Of a stretch of DNA of 64,000 nt, positions 9,524 through 42,610 are shown in pieces. Position 1 is the stretch's first letter, and each line of letters opens with the position of its first letter. Origin of the DNA: Paenibacillus wynnii (GTDB lineage Bacteria; Bacillota; Bacilli; Paenibacillales; Paenibacillaceae); assembly GCF_000757885.1 (NCBI RefSeq), contig NZ_JQCR01000003.1, positions 124,001-188,000 on the forward strand, read 5' to 3'. The position numbers and the translations under genes were made by a program. Under the pieces are notes generated by a model that worked only from the letters and a program-made list of their open reading frames with translations, ran no database searches and had not been told where the DNA came from.

Positions 9524-10219
9524 ATGAAAGTGAATTCAGTATATGTAGGTGCTAGCATTGATGTTATAGCGTTTGAAGCTCTATGGGTAAGGCTTTCCAA
9601 AGAGAAACAAGAACGATTAAAGAAATTTAAAAGACAACAGGATATTATTCGTTCTCTAGTTGCTGATCTACTTGCTAGAATGATGTGTGCTGAAGCTATG
9701 TGCTGCAGTATGGAGGACGTTGAGTTTGAATACAATGAGTTTGGCAAACCGTTAGTTTCCGGAGATACACCCTGTTACTTTAATGTTTCTCATTCAGGTG
9801 ATTGGGTAGTTTGCGCAGTTGATAGTGATGCGATAGGTATTGATATAGAACAAAAAGGTAATATAGACCTAGAAATAGCCAGAAGGTTCTTTACTAGTCA
9901 GGAATATAGGTACATTTGGGGGGGAGATCCGGTAACACGTATAGATAGATTTTATGAGATTTGGACATTTAAAGAGAGTTATATTAAGGCAGTTGGAAAA
10001 GGCCTGACCATCCCGCTTCAATCTTTCGAGGTTGAGATAGCGCAGCAAGAGTACGGAGAATCATTACGAGCTAGAATAAGCAAGAATTCGAGTAGTGCTA
10101 ATGTATGGTTTTTGAAACAGTACAATATGAATGCCGACTACAAGGTGGCTATTTGTGCAAAAGAACAACTTTTTACCCAGACTATCCATAACATAAACAT
10201 AAATCGACTTTCTTTATAA
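9524..10219 (+). CDS. sfp: Sfp-type 4'-phosphopantetheinyl transferase
   Basis: Transfers the phosphopantetheine arm of CoA to a serine of carrier domains, which the NRPS/PKS carrier proteins next door need to become active. The 231-residue product has the family length and motifs: FGKPLV and FNVSHSGDWVVCAV (about residues 69-95), the Mg-binding GIDIEQ (about 104-109) and FKESYIKAVGKGL (about 149-161). Start ATG at 9524 behind GGAGTGA. It lies upstream of the synthetase genes in the same direction, separated by about 415 bases and a separate promoter, so it is probably the first gene of the cluster but on its own transcript. Confidence 0.93.
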   Translation: MKVNSVYVGASIDVIAFEALWVRLSKEKQERLKKFKRQQDIIRSLVADLLARMMCAEAMCCSMEDVEFEYNEFGKPLVSGDTPCYFNVSHSGDWVVCAVDSDAIGIDIEQKGNIDLEIARRFFTSQEYRYIWGGDPVTRIDRFYEIWTFKESYIKAVGKGLTIPLQSFEVEIAQQEYGESLRARISKNSSSANVWFLKQYNMNADYKVAICAKEQLFTQTIHNININRLSL

Positions 10220-10320
10220 AAAACAACGCGGTGAGCGCTAATTTACACGAATGCTGTCACTAATTCTGAATGGCTCTATTTTCACGTAAAAAACCGGGAT
10301 TAACCAATAAATTTCATGGA

Positions 10321-10349
10321 TTGACAAAAATGACCATCGATAATACAAT
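10321..10349 (+). promoter_or_regulatory. Sigma-A promoter of the NRPS-PKS operon
   Basis: TTGACA (10321-10326), 17-bp spacer, TACAAT (10344-10349): one mismatch to the vegetative consensus. It is the only strong promoter seen before the long run of co-directional, mostly overlapping genes up to the ABC transporter at about 42.6 kb. Confidence 0.7.
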
Positions 10350-10360
10350 CTACTCGTTAG

Positions 10361-10380
10361 TAAATTAATGTAAATTAATC
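10361..10380 (+). repeat. Tandem decamer TAAATTAAT(G/C) just after the transcription start
   Basis: TAAATTAATG and TAAATTAATC lie head to tail about 12-31 bases downstream of the -10 box. The position and helical-turn spacing fit a protein-binding site, but base composition is so AT-rich that chance cannot be excluded. Confidence 0.4.
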
Positions 10381-10478
10381 AAATGAATTCTTTATAAGGA
10401 AATGAATAAATTTTAATATACCTCGAAGTGAATAGCATAAACTCTAACCCATATCTTTATATTTTCTGCATAAAACTC

Positions 10479-10514
10479 CACATAACTACTCACATAATTA
10501 CTCACGCAAAGACT
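10479..10514 (+). repeat. 12-bp direct repeat, three units, in the operon leader
   Basis: CACATAACTACT, CACATAATTACT and the diverged CACGCAAAGACT follow each other without gaps. Function unknown; a binding site or a duplication scar. Confidence 0.4.
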
Positions 10515-10635: not shown

Positions 10636-11112
10636 GTGTGGTTTTTAGCGCTGTGGTTGTTAGGTATTATTTCAGGTCTGGTACATTTATATACCCTAGG
10701 ATTTCCCAACAATGTAAGTGATATAAGTACGATCCTGCTGCTTCATCAATTTGTGGTCACGTTCGGATTGGTTGGCGTAATTGGTTACGTAGTTAATATT
10801 GCGAGAGCTGATGAAACAGCGAAGATGTTAGGTTGGCCGGGTGGACCGTTTCAGGTTAAATATGGTTTCTCTCAAGTGGGTTTAGGTGTAATGGGGATTT
10901 TGGCCATTTGGTTCCAAGGTACCTTTTGGGTCGGTGTTCTGGTAACCATGTACATCTATGGACTAAGTGGTCTGTGGTCTCATACACATGTGATGATTAA
11001 GAATAAGAAGGTCGATGCTGATAGTATAAGCAACCTTATTATGGACGTTGTTTACCAGACATTCATTACAGTGTTGTCGATATTAGCAGGGGGAATCTGG
11101 GTTCTGGGATAA
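10636..11112 (+). CDS. Small membrane protein, DUF6790-like
   Basis: 158 residues with about four hydrophobic segments (near 1-20, 34-54, 80-100, 104-122, with a weaker one at the C-terminus) and the conserved-looking motif GWPGGPFQVKYGFSQVGLGVMG that recalls the DUF6790 family. No enzymatic function is known. The GTG start lies 7 bases after AAGGAGG; the ATG two bases earlier (10634) opens a frame that stops after four codons, so it cannot be the start. It sits 20 bp before the giant synthetase gene and is its first operon partner. A role in immunity or export is a guess from position only. Confidence 0.7.
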   Translation: MWFLALWLLGIISGLVHLYTLGFPNNVSDISTILLLHQFVVTFGLVGVIGYVVNIARADETAKMLGWPGGPFQVKYGFSQVGLGVMGILAIWFQGTFWVGVLVTMYIYGLSGLWSHTHVMIKNKKVDADSISNLIMDVVYQTFITVLSILAGGIWVLG

Positions 11113-11132
11113 AAACTCGAGGGGGTAGGATT

Positions 11133-14100
11133 GTGATAACAAAAAGAGTGGAATTATCGGAAACCCAGAAAGGTATTTACTTTGATTGCCAAATCGATAA
11201 CCCTATATCCTATAATATATCTGCAACTTTATTAATTGAGGGCTTACAGGAGAAACACTTTGAGTCGGCTTTAAAATTAGTAATTGGAGAACAAGAAGCC
11301 TTACGAAGCAGTCTCCAAATGGTAGATGATTTGCCGGTTCTAGCTATTCATGACCGAATTCCCTATGTATTAGAAAAACAAGATCTTTCAGCTCATGTCG
11401 AGCTGAGGGATGAATTAGTAAGAGGAATAACTAAGGAAGAATGCAATACGACATTTGATTTTAGCGAGGCTCCTTTATTTCGCACTAAACTAATTCAATT
11501 GGAGGAGCATAAACACCTATTTCTGATCTGCATCCACCATATAATCTCCGATGGTTTATCATTAGAGATTTTTAAGAAGAAATTACTGAATTATTATTCC
11601 TACTTGGTAAATAAGAAACCAATGACCTTGAAACAGGATTCTGGGTTCTCTGAATTTATTGAGCGTGAAAATAGTAAACTATTAGATGGAAAGTATAGTA
11701 AACAGAAAGAGTATTGGTCACAAAAAATGAGAGGCTCCGAACCGCTGGCCTTACAACCGGATTATTCAGTTAGACACAAAGATCAAGGCATCGGTAAGGA
11801 AAAACGTTTTGAAATCCCTTCCGAAATGATTAAGGCCATTCATCATCTGTCCATGGATCAAGAAGTTACGGATTTTATGTTCTTTATGGCAGCTTTTACC
11901 GTACTTATGAATCAGTATACGCGAAATGATGATATTATCTTCTCTTCCCCCTTTTCCTATCGCCCTAGCTTTGATCTGGAAGAAACCATGGGTTGTTTTG
12001 TCCATATGTTACCTATGCGTTTCAACATTCAGAGTGATGGCCACTTCACTTCTATTCTGCAGCAGGTTTCCCATGAATTAATTCAAGTATATAGAAACAT
12101 TGGATACCCTAATAATTTGATTGTACGAGACAGCCAATTGGTACCTATGCCTGGCTCGCCTTCGATATTTGATGTGTCTTTTGTCTACGATATATATGAA
12201 GAAACAGAAGATAACCATCTTAAGATAGAAGTTCTCGATCAGGATATCGTAACTTTTCCAGGGAGCTTAATGGTCATCTTAAATAAAACTCCGTATCAGG
12301 ACATGATTAAAATTCAATACAAGTCTGGAATCTTTTCGGATGAAATGATAGAGCTGCTGGGACGTAGATTTCTGAAGCTCCTTGAAGTTGTAATACAAAA
12401 TGTTGATATCCCAATCGGACAGATTGACTTGTTGTTAGAGAATGAAAAGAAATGCATATTACAAGATTTCAATGCTACTTCTTATTTCCCCTACCAGCCA
12501 CAGCATATTATGGATGTGCTCCATTCTAAGGTTATCAACCACCCTGACCATATCGCACTGATAGAAGGGGAGAAACAAGAAACCTATGCTTCCGTGAACG
12601 CCAAAGCTAATCAATTAGCTCGAAAAATTGCGGGAAGAAAAAGAAAAGCCAATGAAGCGATAGGCATACAGATGCACCGTTCGATGAATTTGGTAATAAG
12701 TCTATTGGCGATACTCAAAGCAGGTTGTGCGTATGTGCCTATAGATCCCGCTTATCCCGCAGCAAGAAAAGAGTATATTTTTGAAGATGCGGATATTAAT
12801 CTTCTTATAACTTCGTCAGAGTGTGAGTTTAAGGAAGACTGGAATATAGATTTTCTTATTATTGATGATCCTGAAACCTATAGCGGCGATGATAGTAATC
12901 TCGCAGAGGAACTGGATCCCTTTAGTTTGGCTTACATTATGTACACATCCGGTTCAACCGGCAAACCAAAGGGAGTCATGGTAGAAAATCATAGTGTAGT
13001 GAATACATTAATGGATTTGGAAAGACGTTTCCCCCTCGGGAAGGATGATGTGTATCTCCTCAAAACCTCCTTTACTTTCGATGTGTCCGCGACAGAATTC
13101 TTTGGATGGTTTATGGGGGAAGGCGCATTATTGGTGTTAGAGCCGGATGGGGAGAAAAATCCTCAATTAATATTGAATGAGATCAGCAAACATGCTGTAA
13201 CCCATATTAATTTTGTTCCAACGATGTTTAGGCTCTTCTTGGAGTTATTTGATATGAATTCTAATCTGGCAAAGTTAGATCCACTTCAATGGATCTTTGT
13301 GGGCGGAGAAGCCGTAACACCGGATATTTTGCAGAAATTTAATGCGCTCCAGACTAATATCAGTCTTGAAAATGTATACGGACCTACAGAATGTACCATT
13401 TGGGTTTCTCACTATTCTCTCAAAAATTACAATGGAGCAGCCAATATCCCTATTGGTCAGCCGCTTAATGAGTCTCGTTGGTACGTAGTTGGGAACAATG
13501 AACATTTGCAGCCGGTTGGTATTCCAGGAGAACTTTGTTTAAGCGGTGTGGGTTTAGCCCGCGGATATCTGAATATGACTGCATTGACGGAAGAAAAGTT
13601 TGTACCAAATCCTTTTTTTGAGGAAGGCATAGATCCTGAATACTATCGATATATGTATCGCACCGGAGACCTTGTACGCTGGCTTCCTAGCGGGACTATT
13701 GAGTACTTAGGACGAATTGATTTCCAGGTAAAGGTACGTGGAGTTCGTCTGGAAGTTGGAGAAATTGAAAATGTGTTGTCTGAGTGCGAGGGAATTGTTC
13801 AGGCCGTAGTAGTTGTGAAGAAACAAGAGGGGAAACCGGGAGTTCTCTGTGCCTATTATCTCTCGGAGAATGAAATCCCTGTGTCAGAGCTCAAAGATCA
13901 TCTATCGAATTCATTGCCTACATATATGATCCCCTCATTCTTCGTCCATAAAACAGAGTTGCCTCATAATAATAGCGGAAAAATTGATAGGAATGCACTT
14001 ATTGCAGACTTAGCTTTTATCAAAGAAACATCCTTAGAGTATGTGTCTCCTAGAACAGAGTTAGAGAGTCAGATTGCATCCGTGTGGCAAGAAGTGCTGT

Positions 14101-17100
14101 CTGTTCCCCTAGTTGGGTTGGATGATAATTTCTTTGATATCGGAGGGAATTCCTTATCACTGATCCAGGTTCACAATAAACTAAGAAAATTGGTTAACCT
14201 TGAATTTACGATCACTTTATTCTTCCAAGCACCGACTGTCCGTTTACTAGCAGAGCACTTTTCTAAGACGGAGGCAGAAGTAATTGGCAATAGAGAAGCC
14301 TATTTTAAAAGAAATAAAAAAATCGTACGCCAAGATATAGCGATTATTGGAATGTCAGTGCATGTTCCTGGAGCTGAGAATGTTTTTGATTTCTGGGATA
14401 ATCTGAAAAACGAAAAGGAAAGCATTCACTTCTATCAAGACGATGAATTAAAGGAGCTGGGCATTGATACTGATCTTTTGAATTCGCCCAATTATGTAAA
14501 GGCAAAAGGCAGGCTTCAAGGCGTAGACTCTTTTGATCCCCAATTTTTCGGGTACACACCGGGGGAAGTTCGGATGATGTCCCCTCAATTACGGCTGCTC
14601 TATCAAGGTACATGGGAAGCGCTCGAAGATGCCGGTTATTTCCCCAACTCGGATTCCTCCAAAATCGGCATGTTTATGGGCGGTTCCGATGATTTTGAAT
14701 GGTACAAGCATGTGCTGTTCGGAGACACCGATTTCAGCAATAAATATCAGGCCTTTACGCTCAGCACCAATCACTTTTTAGCAAGCAGAGTCTCTTATAA
14801 ATTAGATATTAAAGGGCCAGTATTCTCAGCACTTACCGGTTGCTCCACCACATTGGTTACACCGCACTTAGCCTGCCAATCCTTGATTTTAGGGGAATGT
14901 GATCTGGCCGTAGCAGGTGGAATTACGATTGAACTTCCCAATGATGGCGGTTACCTGTATGAAGACGGGATGATGTTCTCACCGGATGGACATTGCCGGC
15001 CGTTTGATGCCCAAGCTCAAGGTACCGTTTTCTCTAATGGTATGGGGCTTGTTGTATTGAAGAGATTGAATGAAGCCTTGGAAGACGGTGACCAAATCTA
15101 TGCCGTTATTAAAGGTTCTGCTATTAACAATGATGGCAATCAAAAAGTAGGTTTTCTGGCACCAAGTGTGATTGGTCAAACCGAGGTCATTCAAGAGGCC
15201 TATCGTGTGGCGGGAATTGATCCGGAGACCGTTAGCTATGTTGAAGCTCATGGTACGGGAACATTACTCGGCGACCCGATAGAGGTTGAATCCTTATCGA
15301 AGGCTTTTGCTTCTGACAAAAAACAATTCTGTGTCTTGGGTTCTGTCAAAGGAAATGTCGGACATACGGATACGGCAGCCGGTGTGGTAGGCCTTGCGAA
15401 AGTGGCCCTTAGTCTAAAGCATAAATATATTCCTGGAACCGTGAATTACCAAGATCCGAATCCGAAAATCGATTTTAAAAACACTCCTTTTATGGTTAAA
15501 GAACATGGAACGGAATGGGGTAAGGAGCCGTTAACAAACGGTTTGTTACGTGCGGGTATCAACTCTTTCGGTGTCGGTGGAACCAATGCCCATATGGTAC
15601 TGGAAGAGCCCCCGGCCACTAGCGAGAGTAGTCCTGATGAACAAGTGAATGTGCTACCGTTTTCTGCTAAAAGCGCTGAGGCATTAAGGGAAACTTCAAA
15701 AAAAGTAGTAGAGTATCTGCTTGAGAACCCGGGAACCCGTCTGTCTGATGCAGCTTGGACGTTGCAAGTGGGCAGAATGCCATTCCCATATCGTAGCACG
15801 TTGGTTATTACTGATGCATTCCGGAATGAGCCGGAGAGAGTGCTTAAGAATCTAAATGATACTGCCTTATATGAAGTGAAAACTTCAAATAGAAAGGTGT
15901 ACTTTATGTTCCCTGGTCAGGGGAGCCAATATCAGGGAATGGGTCGAGACCTTTATTATTCAGCGGATCAAAGTGCGATGTCCAGGATATTCAAACGTCA
16001 TATCGACCAAGTATTTGACCTGTTGAAAGAAGAGGAACGTGCGGAGTTTAAGGAGTTAATCTACGGGGATCAGCACCCTCATCAAATTAATCAAACCGAA
16101 TACAGCCAATTTGCATTATTTGCTACCAGTTATGCATTAGCTAAGACATTAATGGAGTTAGGTATCCAGCCTGCAGGAATGATTGGTCATAGTATCGGAG
16201 AGGTTACTGCAGCTACGGTTGCCGGTGTATTTGCTCTGAAGGATGCCGTTGAAATCGTAAGGACTCGCGGTCAAATCATGCAGAAGCAGGAGCCCGGAGT
16301 TATGCTGGCTGTCATGGCCGATGCCGGGGAAGTGGAGAAGGAGCTTGAACCGAATGTCTGGCTGGCTTTGGAGAATACGACCCGCAGTTGTGTTGTTGGA
16401 GGAAGTGAACAGGCGATTGTTCATTTTGAAAGTAAGTTAGAGAAGCTTGGCTTGAAATTTGTAAGAGTCAAGACCTCTCATGCCTTCCACACACCTATGA
16501 TGGAACAAGCAGCCCAAGAGTTTCAGCAATTCCTTGCCCAATACACTATGAACGAACCCCTAATACCGATCGTTTCCAATACAAGCGGAACATGGGTTCA
16601 GGAAAAGGATATGACAAATCCTGAATATTGGTCCAAACATATTTTAAAGACGGTCAAGTTCTCTAAGAATCTGTCTGAAGTACTCAAAAATAAAGATGAT
16701 GTTTTTATTGAGGTAGGGGCCGGGCGGACATTAAGCACCTTCGCTAGACAACATGAATCCAGAGCGGACGGGCAGCACTTTATTAATTTGATTCGACATC
16801 CGCAAGAAATTGAAAATGATGTGGTATATACAAATAAAAAATTCGGAGAGATTTGGTGTGCAGGTATCCAAGTGGATTGGGTTGCCTTGAAGGGCTCCTC
16901 TGTCCGTAAGCGCCTCTCTCTGCCGACTTATGTATTTGATAAAGTCCATTTTCCTATTCATATCCAGACGGACGCTGTGCAAAAATCGGCATTCAACAGA
17001 CTCGACATCTCAGAGACTAAGTCTTCTATTCCCTTGAGATCCGTTGCTTTTCAAAGTAAAGGCGGTCTGGAGAGTACGGTTGTTGATGCTTACAAAACGG

Positions 17101-20100
17101 TGTTTGGGTTTGATACCATTGGTGTCGACCAGAACTTTTTTACACTGGGTGGAGACTCCCTTAAGGCGGTAAGTCTATCTTCAGCTATTAAAAATGTATT
17201 GGGCATCAAAGTGGAGATCGCTGACCTTTTCAAATATCCATCTCCCGGCGCTTTAGCATCCTATTTAAGTGAAACTGAAGTTAGTACATCAAATGATATG
17301 AGCATTAGACCTGCAGCGAAAATGGACGGGTATACCCTGTCATCGGCCCAAAATCGGATGTTTGCCCTTTCATTATTGGACAAAGACAATGTTGCTTATA
17401 ATCTTCCTTCAGCCACAATGATCAGAGGTCCGTTGGACAAAGTAAGAGTAGAACAGGCCTTGGATAAGTTGATACAACGGCATGAGTCTTTAAGAACTAC
17501 TTTTAGAATCAGAGACAATCAACCTGTACAGATTATTCATTCAACGGCAAAAGTTCCGATTACCTATTCGGACAAGACCGTCACCAGTCATGAGGATATC
17601 CGTCATCTTATCTATGAATTTATTAAACCTTTTGATCTCGAAAAAGCTCCCTTGTTCAGAGTTGAACTCATCAACACCGGTGTGGATAGCTACTTACTTT
17701 TGTTCGATCTCCATCACATTATTGCGGATGGTACTTCAGTAGAAATTATAACGAGAGATTTCAATGAGCTTTATTTCGGTGAACTCGCTCCTGCGAAGAT
17801 TCAATACAAGGATTTTGCTGTATGGCAGCGGGACTACCTTAAGTCGCAAGAAATCGAGGTACAAAAGGAGTTTTGGCTCCAACAACTTGGTGAACATTTG
17901 CCTGTCCTGGAATTGCCAATAGACTTTAAGCGACCTCCTGTGAAGGATTTTGCAGGAAGCAGAATTTATTTTGACCTGGATAGACAATTAACTGCTAAAC
18001 TCGTAGATTTGGCTCAAACCTCAGAAGCGACACTCTTTATGATTATGTTAAGTGCTTGGAATGTCCTTTTAGCCAGATACACGGGTCAAGAAGACATCAT
18101 TGTAGGGACTCCGGTAGCAGGCAGGACTCAGGAGGAGATAGAAGAAACTGTAGGTATGTTTGTTAACATGTTGGCTATGAGAAATCATCCGGAGAACGGC
18201 AAGAGATTTATAGATTTCTTAAATGAGGTGAAAGAGAATTCCCTCAAGGCTTTTGAGAACCAAAATTATCAATTTGATGAGTTGGTTGAACAATTGAACC
18301 TCAAACGGGAATTAAGCCGTAACCCACTATTTGATGTTTGCTTCGATTTTCAGAATATGGAAGTTTATGATTTGGAAATTAACGGCATCCGCTTTACGCC
18401 GTATACCTTCGAGACGAATTCTGCTGCTTACGACCTTGTTCTGACTTGCCAGGAAAACAAGAAAGATCAGGTTATAACAGGATTTTTCGAATATTCAACG
18501 GGTTTATTTAAAAAAGAAACTGTGGAACGGATGGCTCGGCACTTCCGGGAAATCTTGGTCCATATCACTCAAGAGAAAGATGTTCGAATTGCCGATATCG
18601 GCCTTCTTCCTCAAGCAGAGAAACAATTCATCTTGAAGCAATTCAATAATACTACCCTTAAGTTTAATGATACTTTACTCATCCAGGAGATGTTCGAGCA
18701 CAATGTGCAGGCTTTTCCTGATAAAACGGCATTAATTGTATCAAGCGGCAAGAAGCTGACTTATCGGGAGCTAAATGATCAATCCAATGCGCTGGCTTGG
18801 CGCTTAATTGAATTGGGTATTCACAAAGACTCTCTTGTCGGAATAATGCCCCGTAGAGATGAATACTTGTTAATTTCTATACTTGGCGTATTAAAGGCAG
18901 GGGGAGCGTATGTCCCTATTGATCCAGGGTTTCCTGAAGAGAGAATTGCTTATATGCTGTCGGAATGCGAAATCAGCACATTAATTTGCTCTGGCGAATA
19001 CCGGGATCTGGTTCATTTTGAAGGTACAATAATTGATTGTGAGTCTCTGGATACGAACTCCAACTTATACAGTAATCCCTCACAAAGGGGAATTAAGAAC
19101 AGCTTGGCTTGTGTCATATTCACTTCCGGTTCAACAGGCAGACCGAAGGGAGTAATGATTAACCAAGAATCTATCGTTAATTTCATTCATGACATAAAGA
19201 ACAGAGAGATTTTTAGGAGTCGCGATGACAGAATGATCAGTGTCACCACACTGTCTTTCGATATTTTTGGATTTGAATCCATTGTTCCGTTATGCACAGG
19301 TCATTCTGTTTATTTGGCTGACGAAAATGAACAGCTGGACCCGTCCTTGGCCAACCAAAAGATCATTGAACACAAAGTCACTCATATCTTAAGTACCGTC
19401 TCCCGGATTAAAGCTTTTGTCGAGAACCCTGATTTTGATCAGGCTTTGAAACAGCTGAAGTGCATCTTAAGCGGTGGTGAAAATTACCCGGTGCAATTGC
19501 TGCAAGATCTGCAAAAGAGATCCCAAGCAAGAATCTTTAATATGTACGGTCCGACAGAAACAACAATTTGGTCAACTACAAAGGAACTTACTCATTCAAG
19601 TTCGATTAACATCGGACAGCCTATTGCCAATACTCAAGCCTACATCATGAATACCGTCGGCAAACTACAGCCAATCGGGGTTTTTGGAGAGCTATATCTT
19701 GCAGGTCACGGCCTTGCCCGTGGTTATTTAAATAATCCGGAGGAAACGAAGGATAAATTTATTGAGGTCTCAGATCTTCCAGGAATCCTTCTTTATAAAA
19801 CAGGTGATCGGGCCAGACTTCTTGACAACGGTGAAATAGAACTCCTAGGCAGACTGGACTCTCAGATAAAGATCCGCGGCTACAGAATCGAATTAACTGA
19901 AATTGAGAAAATGGTTCTGAGCCATGAGAATATTCGTCAAGCGGTACTTACCGTGATAGACGACAAAAGGAATAACAAACAGCTTGTATTGCATTATTGC
20001 ACCAAAAAAGAGGTAGAGCTCTCCAGTGAAGACAGCGTATGGCTGAAAGGATGGCTGAGAGAATGTCTGCCTCATTATATGGTACCTTCCTACTTCATAC

Positions 20101-31944: not shown

Positions 31945-31946
31945 TT

Positions 31947-33346: not shown

Positions 33347-34302
33347 GATTTGCGGTGTTATTCCCGGGGCAAGGCAGTCAGTACATTGGCATGTGCAAAG
33401 ATCTGATTGAAAAGTTCCCTGTAGCGGCTAAGGTATTTGAAGAGGCAAACAGCAGCTTGAATTTTGATATCCGTTCTCTAATCTTGAATGGACGTCTGGA
33501 AGAACTAACACGTTCAGAAAATGCTCAACCGGCGGTTGTCACCGCAAGTTATGCGTTGTTTCGAGTCTTCAATGATCAATACGGACTAACACCTTATTGC
33601 AGTGCAGGTCATAGTTTAGGTGAGATTTCGGCTCTTATTGCTGCAGGAGCGTTGTCCTTTTCTGAGGGTGTCACATACGCCAGACAAAGGGGATCTATCA
33701 TGCATCGTGCTCTTGAAGAAAAAAAGGGCAGAGCCGGTATTGTGGTCGATCTGGATATTGAGGTTCTGAACAACATCATTGCGTCCATTCTGGTAAATGA
33801 TTATGTGGCTGTATCAGGGTATAATTCCCCCAAACAATTTATTGTTGCCGGTTATCCAAGTGCCCTTCGGTCTTTAGAAAAGGAAGTAGATAAGTATGGA
33901 GGGCAGTTTATTCCTTTTCGGATGATGCCTATGAAAGCAGATGCCCCTTATCACACTGCCTTGATGACCTATCTAAAACCTGAGTTGGAAGAAGCCTTGC
34001 GCAACCTCAAATTTGAGCAGACAAGCTTTGATCTATGGTCCACTGTAACTGGCAAAATCATTGAACCGACAGATTGCATTCCAAGCATCCTCGGCAACCA
34101 ATTAGTCTTGCCTGTTCAATGGAATCAGGTCCTCTCAAGCATCCAAGATTCAGGAGTGGACTTATTCATAGATATCGGGCCGCAGCAAATTACAAGGAAC
34201 CTTATGAAAGAGAATCCGGAGCTGCCGGTCAGCTTAGCCTTTGATGATGAAGAAGACCGGAAGAAACTGGGTGAAATGTTGAATATGGAGGTGATCCTGT
34301 GA
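33343..34302 (+). CDS. Discrete acyltransferase (trans-acting AT)
   Basis: 319 residues forming a complete stand-alone FabD-type acyltransferase: FPGQGSQYIGM at the N-terminus, nucleophile Ser91 in AGHSLGE, RQRGSIM near 112. In the region where malonyl-specific ATs have HAFH or GAFH, this protein has APYHT (201-205). FenF/ItuD do the equivalent job in mycosubtilin and iturin by loading malonate on the ACP that follows the KS. Here two in-cis ATs are degenerate, so this enzyme must serve at least one of these modules, and its altered motif allows for a substrate other than malonyl-CoA, for instance hydroxymalonyl-ACP. ATG overlaps the preceding stop by 4 bp (ATGA). Confidence 0.9.
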   Translation: MRFAVLFPGQGSQYIGMCKDLIEKFPVAAKVFEEANSSLNFDIRSLILNGRLEELTRSENAQPAVVTASYALFRVFNDQYGLTPYCSAGHSLGEISALIAAGALSFSEGVTYARQRGSIMHRALEEKKGRAGIVVDLDIEVLNNIIASILVNDYVAVSGYNSPKQFIVAGYPSALRSLEKEVDKYGGQFIPFRMMPMKADAPYHTALMTYLKPELEEALRNLKFEQTSFDLWSTVTGKIIEPTDCIPSILGNQLVLPVQWNQVLSSIQDSGVDLFIDIGPQQITRNLMKENPELPVSLAFDDEEDRKKLGEMLNMEVIL

Positions 34303-35624
34303 TAACAAAAACCAGCATGAAAGATTATAACCACCGAGTGAAGGGACTGCTGCCAGGAGGTGTGCACTATAACTTCCATCTCCCGTGGGAGGAGACCCCT
34401 ATTCATTTTTTGAAAGCAAATGATAGCCGGGTTTGGGATATGAATGGTGAAGAATACCTGGATTTGTATGCTAGATTCGGTGCGCTGATCGTGGGTCACG
34501 GAAATAAGGAATACAATGAGAGCCTTAAAGAAACCATTGATAGGGTTCTCTCCGTGAGTCACTGTGATATGGATGCTGAAGCCTTGGAATTGATCGCAAA
34601 ATATATACCTTCTGCTGAAATGATTCGCTTTGGACTATCGGGAACTGAAATCGTACAAAATGCACTTCGGTTAGCGAGGGCTTGGACTGGCAAAAACCGT
34701 TTTGTCAGATTTGAAGGCCATTATCACGGAAACGCAGACAATATTATGGGTGGGCGGGTTCCGAGAACCGGAGAGCCGATACCTTCTGATTATTTCGGAG
34801 ATCTAAAAGGTACAGCAGGACGAGCTAAGGATTCACTTGAAAGCCAGTCCTATCTATTGCCTTGGAATGATGCCGACCTCTTGGAAGAACTATTTATCAA
34901 TAACGGGGATGACATCGCAGCAGTGATTACTGAACCGGTCTGTGTAAATGGTGGAGGGGTTATGCCTGCTCCCGGGTATCTGAAAAAAATGAGAGAACTG
35001 TGTGATAAATACAATGTTGTCCTCATCTTTGATGAGATTATCACCGGGTTTCGAATGGGATTAGGCGGGGCGCAAGAAGAATTCAATGTGACTCCAGACC
35101 TGACCACACTGGGGAAAGCCATTGCTGGGGGAGGGGTTCCTGTCTCAGCACTGGTCGGTAAAAAAGAGATCATGCAGCTATTGGTAGACAAGAAAGTGAT
35201 TCATGCGGGAACCTTTAACGGCTATCCCTTAGGTACAGCTGCAGTCAAAACGACCCTTGAAATCCTAAGTAGAGATAATGGATTAGCTATGACGCAAATG
35301 AACACAAAAATGAGTATGATCCACGACATTTTAAAAACGGAGGCAGAAGCTGTAGGGCTTCCACTTGTGATTCAAGGCCCGCCTGCTTGTGCATCTTATC
35401 ATTGCTGCAATGACATTCTTCAAACCACTGCTGATTACACTTTTGAAATCATGTCGCTAGATATTATTCTGCATAATAACCTATCTAAGAACGGTATTCT
35501 TGTCTCATCCATCTCCCGGTTATATCCCAATATTTCACTTAACATGAGTGATGTGAATTGGTTTCGTGAGAGAGTGGGCAAGGCATTGTTGGATACAAAA
35601 GAAATATATGATGAGCTTATCTAA
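34299..35624 (+). CDS. Discrete PLP-dependent aminotransferase, iturin AMT-like
   Basis: 441 residues of the glutamate-1-semialdehyde aminotransferase family (class III PLP fold). The PLP lysine is Lys273 in LGKAIAGGG; the cofactor aspartate lies in VLIFDEIITGFR. The N-terminal stretch HYNFHLPWEETPIHF is what I recall of the aminotransferase domain embedded in MycA/ItuA, which converts a 3-ketoacyl-ACP into a 3-aminoacyl-ACP. Here it is a separate protein rather than a domain, next to the split initiation proteins. Real haem-pathway HemL is an unlikely alternative given the location. GTG start preceded by GGAGGTGAT, a near-perfect ribosome binding site, overlapping the AT stop (GTGA). Confidence 0.85.
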   Translation: MITKTSMKDYNHRVKGLLPGGVHYNFHLPWEETPIHFLKANDSRVWDMNGEEYLDLYARFGALIVGHGNKEYNESLKETIDRVLSVSHCDMDAEALELIAKYIPSAEMIRFGLSGTEIVQNALRLARAWTGKNRFVRFEGHYHGNADNIMGGRVPRTGEPIPSDYFGDLKGTAGRAKDSLESQSYLLPWNDADLLEELFINNGDDIAAVITEPVCVNGGGVMPAPGYLKKMRELCDKYNVVLIFDEIITGFRMGLGGAQEEFNVTPDLTTLGKAIAGGGVPVSALVGKKEIMQLLVDKKVIHAGTFNGYPLGTAAVKTTLEILSRDNGLAMTQMNTKMSMIHDILKTEAEAVGLPLVIQGPPACASYHCCNDILQTTADYTFEIMSLDIILHNNLSKNGILVSSISRLYPNISLNMSDVNWFRERVGKALLDTKEIYDELI

Positions 35625-35651: not shown

Positions 35652-36509
35652 ATGCAGATGCAAAACCAAACAATTGCTATTATTGGCGCGGGAGTCATGG
35701 GATGTGCCACTGCACTGGAAGCCTCAAGACATGGGTATGATGTCATTCTGAAGGATATATCTGCTGCCGCTCTGGAAAAGGCCCCTAAAATAATCAAACA
35801 GGAATATCGTTCAGCATGTCTATTCAATAAAGAGTACTCCGCTGTGAAATTGGATACGATTCTGAGTCGGATTACATTTCAAGATGATTACTCGAATATT
35901 GAGGATGCCGAAATTGTTATCGAAAATATTAGTGAAAATCTGCACGAAAAGACTTCAGAATATAAGAGATTAGCTGAAGTGTGCAAGAAGAATACACTTT
36001 TTGCACTTAACACAAGTTGTATATCTATAACAAAATTGGCCTCATTTCTACCGGACCCCACAAAAGTGATCGGTATTCATCTGATGAACCCAGTGCCTCT
36101 TAAGGAAATGGTTGAAGTCGTGAGAGGCTATCATACCTCCGATCAAACTAAGGAAGAAGTGGTCTCTTTCTTAAAGAGCATGGGGAAAAGCGCTATTGTC
36201 ATTGGTGATTTACCGGGGTTTGTATCCAATCGCCTTTCGCATCTATTCATGAATGAGGCCGCCTTTATCGTTCAGGATGGAATTGCTACAGCTGAACAAG
36301 TAGATAACATTATTAAACAAGGCTTCAATCATAAAATGGGACCGCTGGAAACGGCCGATTTAATAGGGCTCGACACGGTTGTCCATTCCCTGGATGTTCT
36401 GTACAACAGCTATCACGATCCCAAGTATAGATGTTGTCCATTATTGCAAAAAATGGTGGACGCAGGTCAGTGGGGGCGGAAAAGCAGAAAAGGCTTCTAT
36501 GAATATTAA
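35652..36509 (+). CDS. 3-hydroxyacyl-CoA dehydrogenase family enzyme (FkbK/ZmaG-like)
   Basis: 285 residues: N-terminal Rossmann fold with GAGVMG (residues 12-17), catalytic region HLMNPVPLKEMVEV, and C-terminal all-helical domain ending GRKSRKGFYEY. Most similar in context to FkbK/ZmaG, which oxidise glyceryl-ACP on the way to hydroxy- or methoxymalonyl-ACP. It is followed within 20 bases by the FkbH-like gene that would supply that substrate. The primary-metabolism 3-hydroxybutyryl-CoA dehydrogenase is the closest alternative, but no other butyrate genes are present. Confidence 0.88.
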   Translation: MQMQNQTIAIIGAGVMGCATALEASRHGYDVILKDISAAALEKAPKIIKQEYRSACLFNKEYSAVKLDTILSRITFQDDYSNIEDAEIVIENISENLHEKTSEYKRLAEVCKKNTLFALNTSCISITKLASFLPDPTKVIGIHLMNPVPLKEMVEVVRGYHTSDQTKEEVVSFLKSMGKSAIVIGDLPGFVSNRLSHLFMNEAAFIVQDGIATAEQVDNIIKQGFNHKMGPLETADLIGLDTVVHSLDVLYNSYHDPKYRCCPLLQKMVDAGQWGRKSRKGFYEY

Positions 36510-36527
36510 TGCAGAGAGGACATGTAT

Positions 36528-37565
36528 ATGGATGAGAATAAGGAGATTAAATGTGTAGTATGGGATCTAGATAACACGGTATGGGATGGCGTCCTCATAG
36601 AATCCAATGATGTGCAGCTCAAACCGGACATTGTCCAGATCATCAGAACACTGGATGAGAGGGGAATCCTTAACTCCATTTCGAGTAAAAATGACTATGA
36701 TCTAGCTATGGCAAAACTTGAAGAATTTGGTTTGAATGATTACTTTCTATATCCAGAAATTCATTGGAATGCGAAATCTTTTGCCTTGGAACAAATTCAG
36801 AAAAATATCAACTTTGGGATGGATGCCATTCTCTTTGTGGATGATCAAGAATTCGAATTGGAGGAGGTGAAAAATGTTCATCCCTTGGTAAATTGCCTTA
36901 ATTCAAGCGAATATCTGACACTTTTAACAAACCCTCGGTTGAGTCCAAGATTTATAACTGTGGATTCGGCCCGTAGGCGCAAAATGTATCAAGATGACTA
37001 CAAGAGGAAGCAAGCAGAAAGTGAATACCAAGGACCCTCAGACGCTTTTTTGGCTTCACTCAACATGAAATTCTCCATCTACCCTGCTGAATTAGATGAT
37101 TTGAAACGGTCCGAAGAACTTACTATAAGAACAAATCAGTTGAATGCCACAGGTAAAACGTTTAGTTACGATGAATTAAATGCGTTGAGAATATCTGATG
37201 ATTATCAGCTGCTTGTCTGTGAATTGGAAGACAAATATGGAACCTATGGGAAAATCGGCTTGGCCCTAATCCATATGGGAGAAGAATATTGGAGACTTGA
37301 GATGATGCTGATGTCATGCAGGGTGATTTCAAGAGGAGTGGGTACCGTTCTACTCACTCATATTATGAAACAAGCTAAGAAGCAAAACAAAATTCTACTG
37401 GCGGATTTTCGGGATACCGGACGTAACCGGATGATGAATGTAAGCTTCCGATTTGCCGGGTTTCGTGAAAAAACCTCAGATGAGAATGGGAATGTTGTGT
37501 TTGAGCATGATCTGAACAACATCATGAATTTTCCTGACTATATAGAACTCTCCATCAATGAATAA
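36528..37565 (+). CDS. FkbH-like HAD-family protein (glyceryl-ACP synthesis)
   Basis: Takes the three-carbon unit of 1,3-bisphosphoglycerate and loads it as a glyceryl group on a dedicated ACP, removing phosphate. The 345-residue product has the HAD motif DLDNT (about residues 12-16), FVDDQEFE (about 105-112) and the C-terminal GNAT-like half (RGVGTVLLTHI), the layout of FkbH proteins. The ATG at 36528 lies 7 bases after GAGAGGA; ATG 36522 is only one base away from it. Between the FkbK-like and FkbJ-like genes, it completes an extender-unit cassette. Confidence 0.9.
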   Translation: MDENKEIKCVVWDLDNTVWDGVLIESNDVQLKPDIVQIIRTLDERGILNSISSKNDYDLAMAKLEEFGLNDYFLYPEIHWNAKSFALEQIQKNINFGMDAILFVDDQEFELEEVKNVHPLVNCLNSSEYLTLLTNPRLSPRFITVDSARRRKMYQDDYKRKQAESEYQGPSDAFLASLNMKFSIYPAELDDLKRSEELTIRTNQLNATGKTFSYDELNALRISDDYQLLVCELEDKYGTYGKIGLALIHMGEEYWRLEMMLMSCRVISRGVGTVLLTHIMKQAKKQNKILLADFRDTGRNRMMNVSFRFAGFREKTSDENGNVVFEHDLNNIMNFPDYIELSINE

Positions 37566-37589: not shown

Positions 37590-37847
37590 ATGAATTATCG
37601 AGACGAAATTAGAACATTTATTGGTGAAAACTTATCCATTGATAGTGACGAGGTTGTGTTTTCAGACGATGATAATTATTTTGAACTCAGATTCGTGAAT
37701 TCCCTTTTTGCCATGAGATTAGTAGATTTTGTGGAACAAAGGTTTGGGGTTGAGATTGAAAATGATGAACTCGATCTTAAGAACTTCAGCACGGTAAATA
37801 ATCTTACAGCTTTGATGAATAAGAAACTATTAATAAAGGAGAATTAG
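37590..37847 (+). CDS. FkbJ/ZmaD-like acyl carrier protein for the extender unit
   Basis: 85 residues with the pantetheine attachment serine (Ser38) in FVNSLFAMRLV, the form typical of FkbJ-type ACPs rather than of PKS or fatty-acid ACPs (which have GxDSL). It follows the FkbH-like gene by 24 bases, with AAGGAGG in front. It should carry the glyceryl to hydroxymalonyl intermediates. Confidence 0.88.
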   Translation: MNYRDEIRTFIGENLSIDSDEVVFSDDDNYFELRFVNSLFAMRLVDFVEQRFGVEIENDELDLKNFSTVNNLTALMNKKLLIKEN

Positions 37848-37850
37848 TCG

Positions 37851-38681
37851 ATGAAAAGTAATAATAAGTATCTCTATTTATATTTGGGCATTTCCTTTGC
37901 CGTATGTTGGGGAATTGCCATTGCCTTCATTCTCTTTGAAGATTTCCTTGTTCCACTCACCGGAGAACTTACATTAATGCATCCGTTGGCTATTATTGCT
38001 TTGTATTCACCTTCAATTGCCGGAATTATTACATATTATGTTATGGGTGGAACCGAAGCTTTAAAAGGACTATTCTCCAAACTTATTCCGAGAAAGCAAG
38101 ACTTGGTCTGGTTTCCTATCATTTTAGGAATTTTTATACTCTTTGGTTTGACGATGCATTATGGTTCCTTGCTGTTTGGATTACCAGTCCCGGATATCAC
38201 CTTCACTGTTCCAGAAATGTTTATAGCGGCCTTGGTAAACTTCATTAAAGAAACAGGGTTGATCGGTGGAGTTTTCGGATGGATCGGATTTTTATTACCG
38301 TTCTTACAAGGGAAATTTAAGAATAACATTACAAGTGCGTTACTAACCGGTTTTCTATTTGGACTGTGGGTCCTCCCAGGTTACATTATTTCTTCGTTCG
38401 GAACATCGACATCCTACTTATTTTATGTTGCTCAACTGATGGTTTTTGTGGTCTTTCAAAGCTACATTTTCAACGCCACCAAAGGGAATCTTCTATTCTA
38501 CCTATTTGCTTTCTGGCTTGCTGCGACAGGCAGTCAAATCCAACTGTATTTCTTCAATCCTGATGTACAAAAGCTGCAAATCTCCTACTTTATTATTGCG
38601 GCTGTTGTAATACACTTTGTATTTAAGAAAAGGAACATCGCTCAGCCCTTGCAGGTTTTTCCGGATTTTATAAAAGCTTAA
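37851..38681 (+). CDS. CPBP-like membrane protein with degenerate protease motifs
   Basis: 276 residues with about eight hydrophobic segments spread over the whole length. The layout resembles the CPBP (CAAX protease and bacteriocin-processing) family, but the motifs are altered: the usual EExxxR region reads KETGLIGGVFGW, and the GLxHLP region reads GLWVLP, without the metal-binding histidine. It is therefore probably not an active protease. It starts 4 bases after the ACP stop, inside the biosynthetic operon, so immunity to the product or export are possible roles, unproven. Confidence 0.6.
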   Translation: MKSNNKYLYLYLGISFAVCWGIAIAFILFEDFLVPLTGELTLMHPLAIIALYSPSIAGIITYYVMGGTEALKGLFSKLIPRKQDLVWFPIILGIFILFGLTMHYGSLLFGLPVPDITFTVPEMFIAALVNFIKETGLIGGVFGWIGFLLPFLQGKFKNNITSALLTGFLFGLWVLPGYIISSFGTSTSYLFYVAQLMVFVVFQSYIFNATKGNLLFYLFAFWLAATGSQIQLYFFNPDVQKLQISYFIIAAVVIHFVFKKRNIAQPLQVFPDFIKA

Positions 38682-38711: not shown

Positions 38712-39458
38712 ATGGAAACCGAAATATTTCAACAATTGAAACCGGGCGCAGGGAAGTGGCAGATGATCTGCTTCCCTTACCTGGGAGGTTATGCGAATTC
38801 CTATCTAGACTTGGCGAATGCTTTGGATGAGGGGTTTGAAGTGTGGTCGTTAAATCCGCCGGGGCATGGGTTAAGCACAAGTGAACCAGTACAGGATATT
38901 GGAATTCTTTTGGACATGTATTACAAGGAATTGCAAGCCATAATCAAACCTCACTGTATCTTTTTGGGTCATAGCATGGGGGGGATCATCGCCTACTTTT
39001 TAGCGCAGCGTCTGCTGAATTCCGGTGATTATAGATCCAATTCTCTCCAGTTAATATTATCTGCTTGCAATACGCCTTGTGAATTTAAGGGGACTAATTA
39101 TTTTAACTTATCCAACGATAAGCTCATTGATCACCTCATTTCTTATGATGGAATTCCGGAGGAACTTATTCATGAGAGAAGCTTGCTAGAATATTTTCTC
39201 CCAGTTATTCGAGCCGATTTCAGAGTATTGGAGACATCTTCGAACCTTGATTTTAGACCGTTAGATATCCCTGTCTCCTTTCTCTGGGGTGAAAATGACA
39301 AAGTAGTCCCTATGGAATCGGTAATCCTGTGGATGAAGTATTTTAGTAATGAAATCAAGTTAGTCCCTATTGAAGGCGGGTCCCATATGTTTATATCCGC
39401 TAAAGCAAAGGTTGTTGCAGAACATCTTGGTGAACTTTTACTTCGACAGACTGTATAA
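38712..39458 (+). CDS. Type II thioesterase
   Basis: 248-residue alpha/beta hydrolase that removes wrong acyl or aminoacyl groups from carrier domains of NRPS/PKS systems. Nucleophile Ser88 in GHSMGG, acid Asp in LWGENDKVVP, and His in EGGSHMFI; N-terminal CFPYLGGYANSY is typical of the RifR/GrsT group. AGGAGGT precedes the ATG. As no thioesterase domain is found at the end of either synthetase, this is the only thioesterase of the cluster; involvement in product release is possible but not usual for this type. Confidence 0.92.
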   Translation: METEIFQQLKPGAGKWQMICFPYLGGYANSYLDLANALDEGFEVWSLNPPGHGLSTSEPVQDIGILLDMYYKELQAIIKPHCIFLGHSMGGIIAYFLAQRLLNSGDYRSNSLQLILSACNTPCEFKGTNYFNLSNDKLIDHLISYDGIPEELIHERSLLEYFLPVIRADFRVLETSSNLDFRPLDIPVSFLWGENDKVVPMESVILWMKYFSNEIKLVPIEGGSHMFISAKAKVVAEHLGELLLRQTV

Positions 39459-39491
39459 ATTTGAACGATTGAAAGGAGTAATGGTAACCGG

Positions 39492-41831
39492 ATGTTATTA
39501 AACATGCTGAAGAAAGATTTCTCCAGAAAAAAGAGCATAACGATTGCATTGTTTATTTTTATTTTGTTATCAGCATTACTTGTCTCGGCGGGTTCAAGCA
39601 TGATCATGGAATTATCTAATTCTTTGAATAACCTATTTACTGCATCAAAAGCTCCGCATTTCGTCCAGATGCATTCCGGAGAATTAAATCAATCGGAAAT
39701 TGATGACTGGACTTCTAAGAATGACCTTGTGAAAGCTCAGCAGACTGTAGAAATGATCAATATAGACGGATCAAATCTATATTTGGGTAACGATACGGAG
39801 TCAGAGAAGAACAGCATTATGGATCTTGATTTTGTTCGGCAGAACACTTCATTCGATTTGTTGCTTAACCTAGAAAGCCAAGTGATCCAACTCTCACGAG
39901 GTGAAATTGCTGTACCTATTTACTATAAGCAGCAGAAAAATATGAATATCGGAGACAAAGTCAAAATCACCACGCCATCCTTTGACATGGAATTCACTGT
40001 GGTCGATTTTGTCCGGGACGTTCAGATGAATCCCTCCATTATTCATTCCAAGCGATTTGTAGTACATAAAGGCGATTTCGAAAAGATTAAGAGTAATCTC
40101 GGTGAAATTGAATACCTGGTTGAATTTCAATTAAATGATTTCAGTAAGCTTAGCGAGTTCAGTAATGCGTACCAATCCTCTAACTTACCCAAGAAGGGGC
40201 CGGCGGTTGACTACAGTTTGTTCAAGACTTTAAATTCAATTACTGATGGTGTTGTAGCGGCGGTTATTATCTTTGTGAGTATTCTTCTAAATGTCATAGC
40301 CATCCTTTGCATCAGGTTTACGATATTGGCAACGATCGAAGAAGATTACAGAGAAATTGGAGTCATGAAGGCGATTGGAATCAGTCAGAGTTATATTAAA
40401 AAGATGTACCTGACAAAGTATGTCGTTATGGCAGCTGCAGCATCTATAATCGGATTCCTGGCCTCCATATTCCTAAACCGTTTGTTCACCGCTAATATTA
40501 TGCTTTATATAGGCACAGCGCCGAAGAGTGTTTTTCAACACTTGATTTCCTTTATTGCTGTAGTCTTGATCTTTTTAATGGTGGTCTTATTCTGCAGCTT
40601 AGTACTCAGAAGGTTCAAAAAGATCTCAACAATAGAAGCTTTGCGGTCTGGAAATATCGGTGATGCAAAGGTCAAGACAGGTTCTCTGCCTCTACACAAA
40701 AGTAAATTCTTTAATATTCCTATCTTCCTTGGAGTAAAGGATGTCTTTCAACGATTTAAGATGTTTAGATTGTTACTGATCGTTTTCTTAGTGAGTTCAT
40801 TTATCATCATCATTCCAGTAAATTTCCTGAACACGATTCAGTCTCCGAGCTTCATCTCCTATATGGGGATAGGCCAAAGTGACATACGGATCGATTTGCG
40901 TCTAACAGACAATATCGTTGAAAGATATAAGGAAATGAACTCTTATATTAAGAACGATAAGGATGTTGCGAAATTTTCTCCACTGGTAACCAGTCAATTT
41001 AAGATGATAAATAATGATGGTGCTCTAGAGAACATCAGTATCGAGACCGGAGACTTTTCTATTTTCCCCTTGGATTATGTTAATGGGAATGCTCCGACAA
41101 GCGACAATGAGATTGCTCTCTCTTATGCCAACAGTAAAGACATGGAGAAGAATGTGGGCGATCAGCTTCAACTAGTAGTCAACGGAACCGAAAATAACAT
41201 GGTGGTTAGCGGTATTTACCAAGACGTGACCAACGGTGGCCGAACAGCCAAGGCACTTATGCCCTTCAATGCGGATGCTGTACTTTGGTATGTAGTCAGT
41301 CTAGATGTATCCGAACATACCGACATCAAGGGGAAGATCGCTGAATATGAAGAAGCATTCTATCCGGCAAAAGTCACCCATCTTCAGGGGTATTTAGACC
41401 AAACCCTAGGGAATACCATTGATCAGCTTAAATTAATCACTATTCTGGCGATTTTGATTGCTATCTTTGTATCCATCTTAATAACATCTTTGTTCTTAAA
41501 AATGTTGGTTGCCAAAGATTACGCTCAAATTGCTATCTTGAAAAGTATTGGATTTACGCTAAGGGATATCCGAATCAAATATGTAACCATGGCGCTACTG
41601 GTACTCAATATCGGGATTATCCTGGGCACTATTGTTTCAAACACGATCGGGCAGAAAATTGTAAGTATCATCCTTTCCTTCTTTGGCGCTTCACAAATTA
41701 AATTCGTTATTGATCCAGTTCAGGCCTACATTCTTTGCCCGCTTGTCTTAATGCTTGTAGTGACGATTACAACATTAATCAGCATTATATCGATCAAAAA
41801 ATCCAGCATTTCTGAGATGATTGTAGAATAG
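39492..41831 (+). CDS. FtsX-type ABC transporter permease
   Basis: 779 residues with two FtsX-like domains, each with three transmembrane segments (near residues 255-380 and 655-770), one N-terminal segment at about 15-32, a further one between the halves (about 425-450), and two large extracytoplasmic regions. The layout is that of antimicrobial-peptide and lipoprotein-type exporters or resistance permeases. ATG at 39492 is 13 bases from AAAGGAG; the ATG nearer to that site (39481) opens a seven-codon frame that stops inside this gene. Its ATPase follows 12 bases later. Export of or self-protection against the lipopeptide is the likely role. Confidence 0.88.
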   Translation: MLLNMLKKDFSRKKSITIALFIFILLSALLVSAGSSMIMELSNSLNNLFTASKAPHFVQMHSGELNQSEIDDWTSKNDLVKAQQTVEMINIDGSNLYLGNDTESEKNSIMDLDFVRQNTSFDLLLNLESQVIQLSRGEIAVPIYYKQQKNMNIGDKVKITTPSFDMEFTVVDFVRDVQMNPSIIHSKRFVVHKGDFEKIKSNLGEIEYLVEFQLNDFSKLSEFSNAYQSSNLPKKGPAVDYSLFKTLNSITDGVVAAVIIFVSILLNVIAILCIRFTILATIEEDYREIGVMKAIGISQSYIKKMYLTKYVVMAAAASIIGFLASIFLNRLFTANIMLYIGTAPKSVFQHLISFIAVVLIFLMVVLFCSLVLRRFKKISTIEALRSGNIGDAKVKTGSLPLHKSKFFNIPIFLGVKDVFQRFKMFRLLLIVFLVSSFIIIIPVNFLNTIQSPSFISYMGIGQSDIRIDLRLTDNIVERYKEMNSYIKNDKDVAKFSPLVTSQFKMINNDGALENISIETGDFSIFPLDYVNGNAPTSDNEIALSYANSKDMEKNVGDQLQLVVNGTENNMVVSGIYQDVTNGGRTAKALMPFNADAVLWYVVSLDVSEHTDIKGKIAEYEEAFYPAKVTHLQGYLDQTLGNTIDQLKLITILAILIAIFVSILITSLFLKMLVAKDYAQIAILKSIGFTLRDIRIKYVTMALLVLNIGIILGTIVSNTIGQKIVSIILSFFGASQIKFVIDPVQAYILCPLVLMLVVTITTLISIISIKKSSISEMIVE

Positions 41832-41842
41832 GGAGGAAATCA

Positions 41843-42610
41843 ATGAATAATATATTAGAGTCAAAAGAACTGAATAAAACATATGTTGTGAATAACAAAA
41901 CTCAGCATAACATTCTTAAAAATGTGAACCTGCAAATCAAAAAGGGTGAATTCGTTTCTGTGATGGGTCCCTCAGGTTCAGGAAAATCAACATTGCTCTA
42001 CAATATTAGCGGAATGGATAATGTGACTTCAGGAAGTGTTTTCTTTAATGGTCATGAAATCTCTGCTTTTTCTGAGAATGAATTGGCTAAATTACGTCTG
42101 AATAAAATGGGATTTATTTTTCAGCACATTCATCTGTTAAAGAATCTAAGCATCTTTGACAATATCATCCTGTCTGCATATATGGCGAAGGTCAGCAGTC
42201 GGGAAAAAATCAATCAAAGAGCTCTTAGATTAATGAAGCAGACTGGAATTTCAGAACTTGCTAATAATGATATTACCCAAGCTTCTGGCGGGCAGCTTCA
42301 GCGGGTAGCCATTTGCAGAGCGCTAATTAATAATCCGGATATTGTGTTTGGTGATGAACCCACAGGTGCCTTGAATTCCAAGTCGGCTAATGAAATCATG
42401 GAAATTCTGGCAGATATCAACCAGGCGGGAACAACGATTATGATTGTGACTCATGATGTTAAAGTTGCTGCAAAAACAGAACGTGTTCTCTTTATGCTGG
42501 ACGGCAATATCATTGCCGAGCATCAGTTAGGCAAATACTCCAAAGAGAAAAATGATATTAAAGCGAGAGAAAACAAACTTTCAAGATGGCTAATGGAAAT
42601 GGGCTTCTAA
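41843..42610 (+). CDS. ABC transporter ATP-binding protein (LolD/MacB type)
   Basis: 255 residues with Walker A GPSGSGKST (about 43-51), Q-loop FQHIHLLKN, signature ASGGQLQR (first residue A in place of L) and Walker B DIVFGDEPTGAL, followed by the H-loop VTHD. The GALNS sequence after Walker B is typical of ATPases that serve FtsX-type permeases. It forms the exporter with the preceding gene and is the last gene of the biosynthetic run. Spacing and ribosome binding site (GGGAGGAAA) support co-transcription. Confidence 0.92.
   Translation: MNNILESKELNKTYVVNNKTQHNILKNVNLQIKKGEFVSVMGPSGSGKSTLLYNISGMDNVTSGSVFFNGHEISAFSENELAKLRLNKMGFIFQHIHLLKNLSIFDNIILSAYMAKVSSREKINQRALRLMKQTGISELANNDITQASGGQLQRVAICRALINNPDIVFGDEPTGALNSKSANEIMEILADINQAGTTIMIVTHDVKVAAKTERVLFMLDGNIIAEHQLGKYSKEKNDIKARENKLSRWLMEMGF

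Follow-up and report, generated by a model that had tools for sequence, protein, structure and literature searches.

A conserved Paenibacillus gene cluster predicted to make a lipopeptide-polyketide, with live, dead and discrete acyltransferases

A long run of biosynthetic genes in a 5.99 Mb Paenibacillus genome raises the question of whether it encodes a working assembly line and, if so, how those modules that have no working acyltransferase (AT) obtain their extender units. The genes lie in a window of 64,000 nucleotides, by which we mean the whole stretch of DNA that was analyzed, and encode a hybrid nonribosomal peptide synthetase-polyketide synthase (NRPS-PKS), a starter protein built on a fatty acyl-AMP ligase (FAAL), a discrete AT, and a hydroxymalonyl cassette of the FkbH type. 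We consider it probable that this is a functional cluster of an uncharacterized lipopeptide-polyketide family and that the pathway proposed below holds as a whole.

A sequence-only reading of the locus had placed the cluster at 9524-42610. All of the parts that it named, from a phosphopantetheinyl transferase (PPTase) to an ABC ATPase, were found by Pfam and NCBIfam in frame on the + strand; its limits did not stand, as the unit conserved in relatives is larger and runs from a DUF6790 gene to an MFS exporter gene (about 10636-44687), with a TetR regulator and the exporter forming its 3' part. All cluster genes lie on the + strand, neighbors mostly overlap or are a few bases apart, and every open reading frame (ORF) is intact in the window. 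The G+C content of the region is 37-44%, against about 47% outside it.

Synthetase, acyltransferases and conservation

The synthetase (11133..27758, + strand) is a protein of 5541 aa. Pfam searches by pieces and motifs gave the domain order C1-A1-T1-KS1-AT1-T2-C2-A2-T3-KS2-dAT2-T4-C3-A3-T5-Cterm, where C is condensation, A adenylation, T thiolation, KS ketosynthase and dAT a dead AT. Only three A domains are present, interleaved with two ketide modules, which bears out the amino acid-ketide-amino acid-ketide-amino acid alternation proposed earlier. That proposal was right in domain content and did not mention the dead second cis-AT or the terminal condensation-type domain. No ketoreductase (KR), DH, ER, E, MT or thioesterase (TE) domain was found in the synthetase by Pfam searches of its pieces.

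The content and order of these domains can be taken as established from the sequence, as can the state of the three integrated ATs. The first, AT1 (15813..16832, + strand; Acyl_transf_1, 3.6e-44), is a malonyl-type cis-acyltransferase and looks live: its GHSIGE and HAFH motifs are kept in the 12 synthetases aligned and in G433, a copy from another family. The second, dAT2 (21903..22832, + strand), reads GQNIGE in the window and matches Acyl_transf_1 at 3.7e-06, below the Pfam cut-off. Its catalytic Ser is gone from 13/13 complete synthetases, replaced by GQN, GQR, GQG, GEG or GRG, while the motifs of KS2, T4 and C3 beside it are intact in the 12 aligned synthetases and G433, and the T4 attachment Ser is present in all synthetases compared. 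A merely divergent AT2 was ruled out, since the Ser is absent from every member. Between genera, AT2 is 26-38% identical and AT1 55-70%; against P. wynnii, dN/dS is 0.21 for dAT2, 0.10 for AT1 and 0.06 for KS2. The third, AT0, is a remnant that follows KS0 in the starter protein (about 31321-31941) and lacks GHSxG in 13/13 proteins, with a dN/dS of 0.26 against 0.04 for KS0. The loss of the AT2 Ser and the AT0 remnant, both read from the alignments and each found in all 13 proteins, are what is new here. As both inactive ATs are common to every member read, their loss appears to be old and tolerated.

The trait of trans-AT systems, KS modules that have no functional integrated AT, is thus found at two of the three KS only; AT1 is intact throughout, so this is not a line in which all modules lack an AT. 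The cluster's sole other AT is a discrete, FabD-like protein (33343..34302, + strand; Acyl_transf_1, 1.5e-31; TIGR00128 below its cut-off) with a lineage-specific strand, FIPFRMMPMKADAPYH. Because AT0 and AT2 are inactive, this discrete AT would load both ACP1, an acyl carrier protein (ACP) of the starter system, and T4. From the absence of any other candidate in the cluster we infer that one discrete AT serves two modules while the third keeps its own live AT.

With the aminotransferase as search query, the locus was found in 23 of 396 Paenibacillaceae genomes, spread over 6 of 19 genera; named carriers include P. xylanexedens, P. amylolyticus, P. barcinonensis, P. taichungensis, P. caui and Saccharibacillus. 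One further copy, in a genome of another Bacilli family (G433; L115, L123, L124), suggests horizontal transfer or an old origin. Twelve relatives, including one from outside the family, were read over the whole or nearly the whole length, and a further one (G394) over part of it. Nearly the same gene order is found in all of them, with variation in the PPTase, TetR, type II thioesterase (TEII) and transporter genes, and its recurrence is far beyond chance. The cluster proteins are roughly 45-98% identical to their counterparts; the closest named carrier is P. wynnii DS2010, at 95% identity over the FAAL-T-KS protein. Against P. wynnii, all domains and genes tested have dN/dS values of 0.02 to 0.27; the one exception is ACP2 (85 aa), which was left out of this reading since its dS is too low. 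The set of domains is complete, with catalytic residues preserved in relatives. Open frames, conserved order and dN/dS well below 1 indicate that the genes are intact and under purifying selection, and the idea of a cluster remnant was discarded on these grounds.

A proposed route to the product

The starter system comprises a FAAL-T0-KS0 protein with the AT remnant at its C-terminus (27751..31944, + strand; Pfam, NCBIfam), the discrete carrier ACP1 (31941..32198, + strand; PP-binding, 6.9e-16), which holds the same position in relatives, and a class-III pyridoxal phosphate-dependent aminotransferase (AMT; 34299..35624, + strand; Aminotran_3, 1.5e-55) that is about 77% identical across genera. 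As the sequence-only reading had it, a start that is fused in iturin-type enzymes is here split over several proteins. FAAL would put a fatty acid on T0, and KS0 would add two carbons, with the product carried on ACP1, which is probably both the KS0 acceptor and the site of transamination. The aminotransferase is proposed, from its family and setting, to convert the beta-keto group of the starter acyl chain to a beta-amino group.

The synthetase would then add amino acid 1 and, by way of the live AT1, a malonyl ketide; next would come a Gly-like residue, then the second ketide at the dead-AT module, and finally an Ile/Val-like residue. To predict these residues, the ten Stachelhaus positions were read from motifs anchored on GrsA PheA, in the 12 aligned synthetases and G433. 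Across the 12, the code of A1 is DVTN(F/C/S)GVIWK, that of A2 is DIFLLGM(I/V)WK, and that of A3 is of the DGFF type (DGFY in one). As these codes are almost invariant, one product family is expected. The A2 code resembles the published Gly code DILQLGMIWK, and the A3 code resembles published Ile/Val codes; the earlier assignment of A2 as Gly-like and A3 as Ile/Val-like gains support from these codes, as a prediction.

The second ketide would draw on the extender cassette, which consists of an acyl-CoA dehydrogenase (ACAD) family protein in the FkbI role (32198..33346, + strand; Pfam; FkbI, 1r2j, among many matches), a 3-hydroxyacyl-CoA dehydrogenase (3HCDH/HBDH) in the FkbK role (35652..36509, + strand; Pfam), an FkbH glyceryl-ACP synthase (36522..37565, + strand; TIGR01686, 252 bits against a cut-off of 147), and ACP2, an FkbJ-type carrier with an FVNSLFA motif (37590..37847, + strand; PP-binding). 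All four components of an FkbH-type pathway are therefore together, and the cassette is complete, as had been claimed; an O-methyltransferase was not found in it, so a free hydroxyl is predicted. FkbH, 3HCDH, ACAD and ACP2 would yield hydroxymalonyl-ACP2, most likely used at T4, the last ketide, to give an alpha-hydroxy-beta-keto unit, with the discrete AT loading both AT-less sites, ACP1 and T4. As there is no KR, both chain ketones would remain. A related cassette lies on a plasmid of Alkalihalophilus pseudofirmus (L069 16258-37804), which also encodes a discrete AT (417 aa), a PKS-C protein and a second FabD-like AT in which the usual Arg is missing; identities to it are 51% for HBDH, 52% for FkbH and 42% for ACAD, and its ACP shares the motif FVNSLFAM with ACP2. 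A different FkbH hybrid cluster (L101; G081:C1:5321000-5340999), with HBDH, ACP, FkbH, a 424-aa AT, PKS-C and NRPS, was also seen in a genome that carries the present cluster.

The last 461 residues of the synthetase form Cterm (26373..27755, + strand), a condensation-type domain with DHxxFDG. It barely matches Pfam Condensation (1.9e-07), and a sequence search of the PDB gave a best E of 0.0017. An AlphaFold2 model built from 14 sequences (pLDDT 80.8) was closest in Foldseek to 8z0r (HtmB2-CT; E 5e-14), and against AmbE-C, the best VIA match, gave a Z of 21.1 with a root-mean-square deviation of 4.5 over 368 residues. The second His and the DG of DHxxFDG are kept in all Cterm domains compared. 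Cterm has a condensation fold after the last T and keeps the active-site His, the marks of a terminal condensation domain. It is the likely release domain in place of a TE; the attacking group may be the beta-amine of the lipid, to give a macrolactam, or an outside amine.

The beta-amination, substrates, placement of the hydroxyl, release chemistry and product are what we infer beyond the domain content. Our guess at the backbone is a fatty acyl chain extended by C2 (beta-amino), followed by amino acid 1, a C2 ketone, a Gly-like residue, a hydroxylated C2 ketone and an Ile/Val-like residue. For a C16 beta-amino acyl chain the arithmetic is 253.2+42.0+57.0+58.0+113.1, about 523.4, plus amino acid 1, or a predicted product of about 595-655 Da if cyclic and 18 more if linear; the mass of 700-1000 Da suggested earlier looks high against this figure.

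Several observations weigh against this pathway. We know of no published code that matches A1, which is left unassigned. FkbH in the cluster is fragmentary or absent in 4 of the 23 genomes (G107, G114, G115 and G130). Each of these four carries a second full FkbH at another locus, as do about half of the remaining cluster genomes, and, judging by this pattern, the hydroxyl may be dispensable or the second FkbH may compensate. Elongating, epimerizing and releasing members all match Cterm about equally, so only its fold is shown. Use of hydroxymalonyl-ACP by the discrete AT is likewise in question, as the protein has an Arg (RMM) in place of the hydrophobic ACP-type signature.

What the discrete acyltransferase delivers

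Use of ACP-bound extenders has been tied to a hydrophobic triplet (MCM or IAI) 11 to 9 residues before the catalytic His, and both zwittermicin enzymes, ZmaA-AT and ZmaF, have GYSxG (PMC4207774); this carrier-recognition (RXR) rule rests on few enzymes. The published signature of GYSxG with a hydrophobic triplet is present in none of the cluster's ATs. The discrete AT has GHSLG with RMM in the window and RMM, RMI or RMV in the family, the Arg at the RXR position being present in 14 of 14 members, as in FabD, and the cis-acting AT1 has GHSIG with KFV. By the RXR rule the discrete AT would be FabD-like. Near other Bacilli FkbH genes, ATs with ZmaA-like GYSFG/MCM (L104) and ZmaF-like GYSLG/IAI (L107, L116) were found and used as zwittermicin stand-ins, the named zwittermicin cluster not being among the matches listed in the plasmid search; in such settings, the triplet of most discrete ATs begins with Q or E. 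The strand FIPFRMMPMKADAPYH is four residues longer than that of FabD and is among the most conserved stretches of the protein: FIPFRM[MIV]PMK is near-invariant, where the protein as a whole retains only about 50% identity from one genus to another.

These features permit a reading that we hold to be unlikely but credible, in which the discrete AT takes malonyl-CoA only, loads ACP1 and perhaps T4, and leaves hydroxymalonyl-ACP2 to be used in trans by KS2 or otherwise. The fatty acid would then be a plain beta-amino one, like that of iturin. This reading fits the invariant Arg and the finding that ZmaA-AT and ZmaF motifs occur in no cluster AT yet are exact at the stand-in loci. The T4 attachment Ser, however, is always kept, so a carrier-loaded extender is expected there; the rule is drawn from few enzymes, and other discrete ATs near Bacilli FkbH genes mostly have Q or E. 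Hydroxymalonyl might instead be used at both AT-less sites, giving a 2-hydroxy-3-amino fatty acid as well as a hydroxylated last ketide. Two inactive ATs beside a single discrete AT agree with this, and the highly conserved recognition strand suggests one dedicated donor; the Arg at RXR speaks against it, as FabD-like ATs normally take malonyl-CoA, and we regard such double use as unlikely. A bolder version, which we offer as speculation and think quite improbable, is a half-converted line in which an AT derived from FabD, of a new type that reads ACPs, gives hydroxymalonyl to both dead-AT modules. The product would be a macrolactam or amide with a 2-hydroxy-3-amino-acyl part and two ketones left unreduced, and its release would be of the condensation type. 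That the cluster is decaying and makes no product would accord with dead AT2, the AT0 remnant and the broken FkbH of some relatives, but is very improbable given intact ORFs, dN/dS well below 1 and a widely conserved order.

Flanking genes, known systems and significance

The first conserved gene encodes a DUF6790 protein (10636..11112, + strand; Pfam DUF6790, 2.4e-19), found directly 5' of the synthetase in all 12 relatives read upstream and with the lowest dN/dS of the genes tested (0.016). Downstream of ACP2 lies a membrane protein (37851..38681, + strand) that is CPBP-like by eye, has no Pfam or NCBIfam match, is present in every cluster read and is possibly an immunity protein; PHROGs returned nothing for it or for the DUF6790 protein. 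It is followed by the type II thioesterase (38712..39458, + strand; Pfam Thioesterase, 1e-29), with a predicted proofreading role, and by an FtsX-type permease and LolD/MacB-type ATPase (39492..42610, + strand; Pfam, NCBIfam), predicted to act in export or self-protection and present in most relatives. The TetR regulator and MFS exporter (42692..44687, + strand; Pfam) close the unit at its 3' end; they too occur in most relatives read, with the MFS gene relocated in G272 and in G433, where it has moved to before TEII.

The Sfp-type PPTase (9524..10219, + strand; Pfam ACPS, 2.4e-18), earlier taken as the 5' gene of the cluster, holds that position only in the window and in P. wynnii (G254). It lies at the 3' end in G043, G391 and G394 and directly after the CPBP-like gene in G272; no match was found in the stretches read from other relatives. 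Directly 5' of it, a GH16 glycosidase with a ricin-type beta-trefoil lectin domain (window 7930-9171) was not matched in any stretch read from the relatives. The same genome also carries a second NRPS (G000:C3:1034222-1041568), a 3,047-aa open frame with three condensation domains.

The cluster shares with iturin- and mycosubtilin-type systems FAAL-T-KS, an ACP, a discrete FabD-like AT and a class-III aminotransferase, and hence an expected beta-amino acyl group. In those systems FAAL, T, KS, ACP and AMT are fused in the first synthetase, whereas here ACP1 and AMT are separate ORFs; theirs is a cyclic heptapeptide NRPS with a terminal TE, while this line has three A domains, two ketide modules and no TE. 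Our iturin-type reference was a FAAL-T-KS-T-AMT-C protein and FabD on plasmid pHD04 of Paenibacillus sp. IHB B 3084 (L070 19995-33885), where they lie with NRPS genes that are possibly paenilipoheptin-like. Identities to it are 37% for FAAL, 40% for KS, 28% for AMT and 32% for the AT, so that the label "iturin-like" given earlier suits the architecture more than the ancestry. Zwittermicin A (zma) has in common a hydroxymalonyl-ACP extender, a hybrid NRPS-PKS and both cis and trans ATs (PMC4207774), but here the start is fatty acyl, and the aminomalonyl branch and the ZmaA-AT/ZmaF signature are lacking. Of the FK520 methoxymalonyl cassette (FkbG-K), FkbH, FkbI, FkbJ and FkbK have homologs here and the O-methyltransferase was not found. 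Puwainaphycin, from the cyanobacteria, another phylum, shares the logic of a FAAL-initiated beta-amino lipopeptide made by an NRPS-PKS (PMC4219810). Paenilipoheptin is a published Paenibacillus hybrid NRPS-trans-AT-PKS (PMC11959601). It is scarcely credible that the cluster belongs to the known iturin, paenilipoheptin or zwittermicin families, with which it shares starter logic and extender cassette, as the start of paenilipoheptin is followed by a peptide line of seven residues (PMC11959601), the zwittermicin AT motifs differ, and three A domains alternate here with ketides. No characterized cluster with this order was found in open papers, which is weak evidence since MIBiG and subscription papers lay outside the search.

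Because the codes are nearly invariant in a gene-cluster family that spans several genera, isolating a single compound would probably account for many genomes. With a live AT, a dead AT and a remnant fixed family-wide, the synthetase is a natural case of cis-to-trans AT conversion within one protein, and its discrete AT bears on whether the rule that separates CoA-reading from ACP-reading ATs holds beyond zwittermicin and FK520.

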